Assembly (NCBI GenBank): GCA_030680805.1
Contig: JAUXUK010000003.1
Span: 1-64,000, forward strand
Direction of reading: 5' to 3'
DNA from: Sulfuritalea sp.
GTDB lineage: Bacteria > Pseudomonadota > Gammaproteobacteria > Burkholderiales > Rhodocyclaceae
DNA length: 64,000 bases
This document shows, one piece after another, positions 24,030 to 28,904 of the stretch. A program made the translations under genes and the position numbers. Below the pieces are notes generated by a model. It was given only the letters and a program-made list of their open reading frames with translations, was not told where the DNA came from and did no database searches. Each line of letters begins with the position of its first letter. Within the stretch, counting starts at the first letter, position 1.

Positions 24030-25189
24030 TGCCGGTGCTCGAAAAGGCGCGGGCACTGATCGCCCGCCCTTCGATCACCCCCGAGGATGCCGGCTGCCTC
24101 GATCTGATCGCTTTCTGGCTGATGCCGCTGGGCTTCAGCATCGAGCGCATCGATACCGGCGGCGTATCGAATCTCTGGGCGCGCCGCGGAACCACCGGCC
24201 GCGTGATCTGCTTCGCCGGCCACACCGACGTGGTGCCCACCGGCCCGCTCGAGCAATGGACGTCGCCGCCCTTCGAACCGACGGTACGCGACGGCTATCT
24301 CTACGGTCGCGGCGCGGCCGACATGAAAAGCTCCATCGCCGCCTGCGTCGTCGCCATGGAACGCCTTGCCAATCGCCGTCCCACGAGCGCCGAGTTTTCC
24401 CTGGCCCTGCTGCTCACCTCCGACGAGGAAGGCGATGCGGTGGACGGCACGGTACGCGTGGTGGAAGCGCTGCGGGCGCGCAATGAAGCCATCGACTACT
24501 GCATCGTCGGCGAACCCACCTGCGTCAGCCGGCTCGGCGACACCATGAAGAACGGCCGCCGCGGTTCGCTCTCGGCCAGCCTCGTCATCAAGGGCGTGCA
24601 AGGCCATGTTGCCTATCCGCACTTGGTGAAGAACCCGGTGCACCTCGCGGCCCCTGCACTGGCGGAACTTGCCGCCACCACCTGGGACAACGGCAACGAA
24701 CATTTCCCGCCCACCAGCTTTCAGATTTCCAACGCCCACGCCGGCACCGGCGCCGGCAATGTGGTGCCCGGCACATTCGAAATCTCCTTCAATTTCCGCT
24801 TCTCGACCGCCAGCACGGTGGAAGGGCTGCAGTCCCGCGTGCATGCCCTGCTCGACCGCCACGGGTTCGAATACGACATCCGCTGGACGCTGGGCGCGAA
24901 GCCTTTCCTGACGCCGCGCGGCGAGCTCTGCGCGGCGCTGACCGATGCAATCGCCACCGAGCTTGGCATTGCCGCCGAACTATCGACCACCGGCGGCACC
25001 TCGGATGGCCGCTTCATCGCCGACATCTGCCCGCAACTGGTGGAGTTCGGCCCGATCAACGCCAGCATCCACAAGATCGACGAATGCATCGCCGTCGCCG
25101 ATCTCGAACCGCTGGCGCGCATCTACGAACTGACTTTCGAGCGCCTGCTTTTCTCCCGCGCCTCCCCCAATGACAAGAAAGCAATTTAA
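24029..25189 (+). CDS. dapE: Succinyl-diaminopimelate desuccinylase
   Basis: [52 protein letters not shown]...[12 protein letters not shown]. Confidence 0.97.
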
Positions 25190-25206
25190 TCGCCCCCACC
25201 CCCCAA

Positions 25207-25224
25207 CCCCCGCCCGGGCGGGGG
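25207..25224. repeat. 18-bp perfect GC palindrome CCCCCGCCC/GGGCGGGGG
   Basis: Read directly between dapE and prmB. Confidence 0.85.
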
Positions 25225-25294
25225 TGACTGTCAGCTCGCTGCGCTCGACGGGCGCTGGTCGCTTCGTCCGCCGCGCCGGAGGCCCTTCACGCTC

Positions 25295-27036: not shown

Positions 27037-27278
27037 GCAGCGAGTATCGCCGATTTGCATCAGTCGCGCCGCACAAACCGGGCTACGGCCGCAGTCTTGC
27101 CAACGGCATGAAACGTCGCTATCCTCGCCGGCATCCGGTGGGTGGCCACCGCTGCCGCGCAGGGAGACCCGCAGTGCCCGCCAAGGAACTTTGATTCAAC
27201 CGGTGAATGCAACAGATTGGCTGAATCGTTCAGCGGGCGTTTCGATAGTCGTTCGTCTCGCTACTCGAAGGAGAGTTC

Positions 27279-27962
27279 ATGTCATATCAGATCCTTCAAG
27301 GAAAGCGCGTGCTTATCACGCACGCCGACGCGTTCATGGGGCCGGTCTTGTGCGAGGTATTCGCGAATCACGGTGCCACGGTTATCCCGAATAGCGACCC
27401 TCTCATGCGTGCTGATGCGCCGATCGCCATCGTTGCCGAGGCCGGGCACGTAGATATCCTCGTTGCCAACTTGGCGATACCTGCACCGACCACAGCAGCC
27501 GCGGAAGTGTCAGACGAGGAGTGGAATGACACATTCGCTGCCCTTGTTCATCCCCTGCAACGACTGTTCCGCGCAGTCTTGCCATCGATGATCGAGCGAC
27601 GCTCGGGCAAGATTCTCGTCATGGGCAGCGCATCAGCACTTCGTGGGATGAAGCGCACCTCGACCTACAGCGCTGCCCGTGGTGCCCAACTCGCCTACGT
27701 GCAGGCCGTCGGCGTGGAGGTGGCCCCGCACAATGTTCAAGTGAACGCAATCGCGCAGAACTTCGTTGATAACCCAACCTACTTTCCACCGGAGGTCCAG
27801 AGCAATCCAAGGTTTCAGGAGCGCCTGAAGCGTGAGGTTCCACTTGGACGCCTCGTAGGAGCAAGAGAAGATGCTGAGTTTGCTGCTTACCTTTGTAGCG
27901 AACCTGCAAGTTGCTTTGTCGGGCAAATCTTTCCCGTTTGCGGCGGCTGGGTGGTGCGCTAA
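27279..27962 (+). CDS. Halohydrin dehalogenase-like short-chain dehydrogenase/reductase
   Basis: T-x4-F-x-G (THADAFMG) replaces the SDR glycine-rich loop; S-x12-Y-x3-R (SASALRGMKRTSTYSAAR) instead of Y-x3-K; NPTYFP and VPLGRL downstream. Confidence 0.72.
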   Translation: MSYQILQGKRVLITHADAFMGPVLCEVFANHGATVIPNSDPLMRADAPIAIVAEAGHVDILVANLAIPAPTTAAAEVSDEEWNDTFAALVHPLQRLFRAVLPSMIERRSGKILVMGSASALRGMKRTSTYSAARGAQLAYVQAVGVEVAPHNVQVNAIAQNFVDNPTYFPPEVQSNPRFQERLKREVPLGRLVGAREDAEFAAYLCSEPASCFVGQIFPVCGGWVVR

Positions 27963-28013
27963 TGCAATCAGCACCCAACCCGACGCTCGACGCCGTTCGC
28001 TCCGCTCTCTGGA

Positions 28014-28039
28014 CGCTGCGCGATAAATGCCGCGCAGCG
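28014..28039. repeat. Inverted repeat CGCTGCGCG-N8-CGCGCAGCG downstream of the HHDH-like gene
   Basis: Perfect 9-bp arms read directly. Confidence 0.85.
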
Positions 28040-28137
28040 CTGGTGACCTCCACGTAAGGCGGCCTACAATTCAGTCGCAAGTAGGGGTTCACCGGCATTC
28101 AACCAGCCAACGTGCTCAACCAATAGGAGACACAGCA

Positions 28138-28530: not shown

Positions 28531-28687
28531 GAATCCGCTCGCTTCAATACGGGCCGCGCCGCTTCGCAGACGTGCCGCCTGACTTGTCGGTCAACCGGAG
28601 GCGCCGCGACAGGCCACCTTGCCCCGGTTACCTCGACGTTGAAGCTGTAGAAAAGTCCCAATTCAAGCGCCTTCCGGCGCAAAAATA

Positions 28688-28711
28688 GCGCGGCTTCGAC
28701 CGCGCCTTTTT
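28688..28711. terminator. Terminator-like hairpin
   Basis: gcgcgg-cttcga-ccgcgc followed by cttttt. Confidence 0.65.
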
Positions 28712-28726
28712 GTATCCGTATCAGAT

Positions 28727-28752
28727 TCGCCGTATCGCCAGCGCCGACTTTT
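28727..28752 (+). repeat. Copy of the GCCGTATCGCCAGCGCCGACTTTT family (intergenic)
   Basis: ttcgccgtatcgccagcgccgacttt. Confidence 0.85.
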
Positions 28753-28904
28753 CGCGTAGCGCGCCGCCGCGTCACCCTTGTTTCTGCTGCCCATGCCGAT
28801 GATGCGCCAGCTTCTCGATGTTGCGCGCCAGGCAGAAGCGCTTCCACTGCCCATCGACCGTCCTTTTCCCGCGCAAGGTGAAGCGGTCCAACCCCGTGTT
28901 GTAC

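Follow-up and report, generated by a model that had tools for sequence, protein, structure and literature searches.

A predicted D-type halohydrin dehalogenase (HHDH) gene, hheD, lies in the window (the whole 64,000-nucleotide stretch of Sulfuritalea sp. DNA that was analysed), and very probably arrived there as an integron gene cassette that now forms part of an integrase-less two-cassette array trapped between insertion sequence (IS) remnants. The encoded protein belongs to the HHDH family; attC sites follow hheD in the window and recur with it in other genomes, and the genome itself carries integron integrases and further attC sites. The excision and insertion of the cassette in the past would have been carried out by IntI.

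The hheD gene and its product

hheD (27279..27962, + strand) begins with an ATG, and its frame runs to a stop codon after 227 residues; it is preceded by the 5′ leader of the cassette (27250..27278, + strand), which contains the ribosome-binding site AAGGAGAG. The published definitions of the two HHDH motifs, T-x4-F/Y-x-G and S-x12-Y-x3-R, are in agreement (PMC11976700, PMC4989007). The first-pass annotation had proposed the protein as an HHDH candidate on account of both, and both were confirmed: THADAFMG occupies residues 14–21 (T14-x4-F19-x-G21), replacing TGxxxG/AxG, and the second motif is S117-x12-Y130-x3-R134. When the protein sequence was shuffled, the two co-occurred by chance in 112 of 200,000 cases. 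The first motif was conserved in 80 of 81 orthologues and the second in all 81, and residues T14, F19, G21, S117, Y130 and R134 were invariant in a 31-row alignment. Pairwise dN/dS values of ∼0.04–0.10 with respect to close orthologues, at a dS near saturation, show the frame to be under purifying selection.

In a phmmer comparison with solved chains, the product scored 335 bits against HheD2 (7b73), 319 against 8xxb, 193 against HheB (4zd6) and 88 against E. coli FabG. A Foldseek search with an AlphaFold model as the query (pLDDT 83) gave 7b73 (68% identity), 8xxb (65%) and HheB (46%) as the top matches. Entry 7b73 is HheD2, an HHDH (PMC9629495), and the title of 8xxb describes an HheD8 triple mutant with chloride. 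In the phylogeny that had been proposed as a check on the candidate, the protein fell outside the SDR clades, the HHDHs being split from the genome's own SDRs with a support of 99/94. The motifs, the nearest solved relatives, the tree and the fold search all support its reading as an HHDH. That it might be a classical NAD(P)H-dependent SDR oxidoreductase is extremely improbable: the product does match Pfam adh_short_C2 and FabG-like NCBIfam models, the latter with scores that fall short of the curated cut-offs in every case (NCBIfam yielded no model specific to HHDHs), but THADAFMG stands where an SDR has the TGxxxGxG cofactor motif, an Arg takes the place of the catalytic Lys, and HHDHs are both its nearest relatives and its neighbours in the tree.

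The sequence assigns the protein to subtype D, and not to an HheA-like type, since in the maximum-likelihood tree it clusters with HheB and D-type sequences (99/98) and not with HheA2 or HheC. The A/C and D/B clades were separated with supports of 99/95 and 99/98 in this tree, in which the rows for HheC, HheA2 and HheB were PDB alignment sequences and types E, F and G were left out. The NPTYFP and VPLGRL segments, earlier taken as HheA-like, are indeed present, and HheA2 (1zmo) also has them (as NNPTYFP and VPLGRL); they are no pointer to type A, however, because HheD2 and the HheD8 variant have them just as well. Enzymes HheD19 to HheD38 show 57–95% identity to verified ones (PMC4989007), a range that includes the values obtained here for HheD2 and the HheD8 variant. 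With these two the product shares both motifs, length and fold, and at two positions, A69 and M124, it has the HheD8 residues that the title of 8xxb lists as mutated; about one-third of its residues differ from theirs. HheB, the next closest HHDH type by structural alignment, is a distinct subtype with Tyr for Phe in its motif 1 and a bit score far below that of HheD2. HheA2 and HheC (1pwx) are of the same family and mechanism but make up the separate A/C clade. As an enzyme, the hheD product is an ordinary additional member of the HHDH family.

The attC sites of the window and the integrons of the genome

What follows hheD falls outside 27279–27962 and was absent from the first-pass annotation. 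A palindromic 82-bp repeat starts about 10 bp 3′ of the hheD stop codon and recurs in the same genome, its copies displaying the attC core sites RYYYAAC and GTTRRRY. The alignment of 18 copies folds with R″/R′ and L″/L′ pairs, and shows compensatory changes in L″/L′ and in one R″/R′ pair. A covariance model trained on these copies, none of which lies beside any hheD, detected two strong attC sites in the 64-kb window, each 3′ of one of two consecutive genes; the next match was noise (E 0.7, the E-values of this model being rough). The attC of the hheD cassette (27973..28060, + strand; 50.1 bits, E 1.3e-13) begins 10 bp past the stop codon, in the orientation of the gene and with paired R″/R′ and L″/L′ sites; its R″ core is ACCCAAC, and its degenerate R′ core, GTAAGGC, departs from GTTRRRY. 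The second cassette contains a gene for a VOC/glyoxalase-fold protein of 130 residues (PF00903; 28138..28530, + strand), with an attC (28577..28644, + strand; 33.1 bits, E 5.1e-8) lying 46 bp past its stop codon. The idea that the odd R′ core of the first site marked a secondary-site junction was dropped once this second attC was found.

Three integron integrases scored above the curated cut-off in the genome, on contigs C72, C90 and C36 (for that on C72, 487 bits in TIGR02249 versus a cut-off of 265), and 23 attC matches were obtained genome-wide among 150 pre-filtered candidates, a list on which the second attC of the window did not appear. Contig C72 contains several same-strand copies of the repeat between small ORFs, adjoining the integrase. 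All three integrases are complete and, like the attC arrays, belong to a single MAG of 3.1 Mb.

These data bear on the possibility that hheD is an ordinary chromosomal D-type HHDH gene, the downstream repeat being an unrelated dispersed palindrome (REP-like or a terminator) and no cassette being involved. Such a reading, which we regard as very unlikely, would fit the lack of an adjacent integrase, the degenerate R′ core and the failure to detect an attC with most hheD relatives. Against it, the repeat is found in this genome in same-strand arrays of small ORFs beside an integron integrase, its paired sites show compensatory changes, its distance to the hheD stop codon is fixed at 9–12 bp in seven loci, and the VOC gene, the next one in the window, likewise ends in an attC. 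On the cassette reading, hheD and its attC would have reached the genome together, and the present state would be an array of hheD-attC and VOC-attC, lacking an integrase of its own, between IS remnants.

A published procedure calls such clusters from at least two attC sites that score at least 20 bits with its own models and lie no more than 3 kb apart (PMC9892861); the array of the window reaches an analogous standard of at least two attC sites, with the model built here in place of the published ones. Since no intI was found near the array and three are present elsewhere in the genome, it was classed as a CALIN (a cluster of attC sites that lacks an integrase) and not as a complete integron. 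As in known integron cassettes and CALINs, each ORF is followed by an attC in the same orientation, the two attC sites lie within 0.7 kb and no integrase is nearby; arrays in related genomes (such as locus L013, below) moreover contain toxin-antitoxin-type cassettes. It differs from them in its HHDH cargo, which was absent from the literature searched (no open paper was found that mentions both halohydrin dehalogenase and integron), in the degenerate R′ core of its first attC and in the IS remnants at both borders. In the window the region upstream of hheD has no remaining attC; given this, the degenerate R′ core and the absence of a nearby integrase, the hheD copy of the window may have lost its mobility.

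VOC-fold genes were also seen close to hheD elsewhere: one (43% identical) precedes hheD by 27 bp in Pseudomonas sp. N040 (L068:7512-7973), and another (80% identical) lies ∼4 kb from hheD at L047:3356-3754. This recurrence is a weak hint of a functional link.

On its left side the array is bordered by a terminal remnant of an IS30-family element (27175..27249), 89% identical to the end of an intact copy on contig C55, which abuts the hheD leader; where the two join, a short stretch is alike in the IS30 end and the leader. A clean integration into the IS30 remnant by an integrase was therefore weighed but rejected, the left junction being without the expected TTRRRY. On the right, directly after the second attC, there is a remnant of a DDE transposase (28645..28903, − strand) with a PF13751-type C-terminus, a type seen in a copy on contig C92. 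Chromosomal synteny with congener G001 resumes at 28903, the far edge of this remnant; in G001 the ferredoxin gene and a gene for a 549-residue protein are 18 bp apart, and the hheD region is wholly missing between them. With an IS30 remnant upstream, no attC on that side and a transposase remnant downstream, the hheD copy of the window may have been fossilised in place between IS remnants.

Two further observations were made on repeats and insertions. The R′ core of an attC is directly followed by a CTGTAGAAAAA-CCC type sequence in the window (28638-28700), in L110 (near 3190) and in L013 (near 2480), and a PF13751 transposase remnant lies near two of these three sites, a pattern that suggests an insertion sequence targeting attC sites. 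A short GC-rich intergenic repeat (25178-25275), located between the dapE-like and prmB-like genes, recurs widely in congeners.

Association of hheD with attC sites in other genomes

An attC starting 9–12 bp after the hheD stop codon was found in seven loci, namely the window, L010, L013, L014, L021, L026 and L034; the downstream matches were weak in L010 (E 0.002) and L021 (E 0.07), the latter being cut by the contig end. Six such coincidences were counted against 0.09 expected from a rough Poisson calculation, a figure that is only indicative because arrays are clustered and the match count was rounded by hand. In L009 and L013 an attC ends 40 bp upstream of the hheD start codon, and the leader that directly follows it is near-identical to that of the window. 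The array of L013 reads BrnT toxin, attC, hheD, attC, RelE-like gene, attC, with canonical attC sites on both sides of hheD. Five copies of another attC-like repeat are present in L028; they immediately flank hheD on both sides and also follow further genes. In L012 the contig with hheD bears a partial match to an integrase and five attC sites upstream of the gene, and in L019:1-7608 (a MAG labelled Alphaproteobacteria) a run of ∼14 attC sites ends 392 bp before hheD.

Loci L009, L011, L013 and L014 have different attC-like sequences upstream of hheD, yet most of them share a similar hheD leader, as expected for one cassette moving between arrays. The combination of hheD and attC was found beside different attC sites or arrays in L009, L010, L013, L014, L021, L026, L028 and L034, several of the supporting loci being short MAG contigs that are possibly mis-binned. 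About 70 of the 81 hheD loci had no attC under the covariance model, so that cassette carriage concerns only part of the hheD family.

In L010 (a MAG labelled Deltaproteobacteria) hheD is 91% identical to that of the window and has a GC content of 57.5%, versus 46% in its flanks; this composition is consistent with a recent transfer. On another attC-bearing contig, a gene for a TIR-domain protein lies directly upstream of hheD (L011:5279-6289).

Distribution, proposed catalysis and role

A single scan of a GTDB-wide collection of genome contigs confirmed 389 relatives of hheD. With this number, and with hheD present in 25 of 200 genomes of the family (16 of 68 genera), the rarity earlier ascribed to HHDHs holds only in a relative sense. 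The best 80 of the 389 relatives are 70–93% identical and come mostly from Betaproteobacteria, the other hosts among them being MAGs labelled Gamma-, Alpha- and Deltaproteobacteria, Acidobacteriota and Bacteroidota. The gene was found in 27 of 399 genomes of the order and, by DNA search, in 6 of 20 congeners, in none of them at the site it occupies in the window; its distribution is patchy in the family and non-syntenic in the genus. A conserved hheD operon was rejected: at most 6 of the 81 loci share any one gene family within 4 kb of hheD, and the cases of up to six shared neighbours are close relatives. No Pfam family was common among the immediate same-strand neighbours. Carriage by plasmids or viruses was likewise rejected, since among 72,556 plasmids only one distant match was obtained (45%), and none was found among the viral sequences of IMG/VR.

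In HHDHs, a Tyr whose pKa is lowered by an Arg acts as the base, a Ser holds the oxygen of the substrate, and a pocket in place of the nicotinamide site takes up the departing halide. By analogy, the hheD product would be a cofactor-independent enzyme in which Tyr130, tuned by Arg134 and aided by Ser117, would deprotonate a vicinal halohydrin; the resulting alkoxide would expel the halide into the T14-F19-G21 pocket, yielding an epoxide. In the reverse reaction the epoxide would be opened with halide, azide, cyanide or nitrite. We infer this activity, and any physiological role, from the sequence.

The protein could, however, be an HHDH look-alike whose natural reaction differs (for instance, addition or elimination on a CoA thioester or other electrophile) and for which dehalogenation is promiscuous. 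We consider this unlikely, albeit less so than the alternatives discussed above. It draws on five loci (L018, L020, L025, L041 and L044; e.g. L041:5873-9680) that resemble leucine-degradation operons, where hheD lies, in the same direction, between the gene for a biotin carboxylase subunit with the Pfam methylcrotonyl-CoA carboxylase BT domain and that for HMG-CoA lyase. These copies may represent one lineage: their independent recruitment to the operon was unsupported, a single clade not being rejected (AU test, P = 0.55). The review by Schallmey states that other physiological functions of HHDHs cannot be excluded, and no epoxide hydrolase with an EHN domain was found in the whole genome. 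Against a look-alike, all 19 of 19 motif-selected candidates in the literature showed HHDH activity, and HheD8 was crystallised with chloride. The leucine-operon copies of hheD are a separate lead on its physiological role. The genome also encodes a type II haloacid dehalogenase (TIGR01428, 219 bits, above the cut-off) at C103:22232-22819.

HHDHs are biocatalysts in use whose natural role and spread are unclear; according to a review, only two known HHDH genes share an operon with an epoxide hydrolase (PMC4989007). The scattering of hheD across unrelated bacteria would be explained by mobile cassette carriage. It is likely that hheD is natural integron cargo that moves between the integrons of unrelated freshwater and wastewater bacteria (Rhodocyclales, Competibacteraceae and MAGs labelled Deltaproteobacteria), which would account for its patchy, context-free spread and point to a stand-alone, conditional role such as halohydrin or epoxide detoxification. 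Cassette carriage would provide a concrete route for the spread of HHDHs and predicts a function able to work alone in many hosts; attC-primed cassette amplicons from polluted water may also be a new hunting ground for these enzymes.
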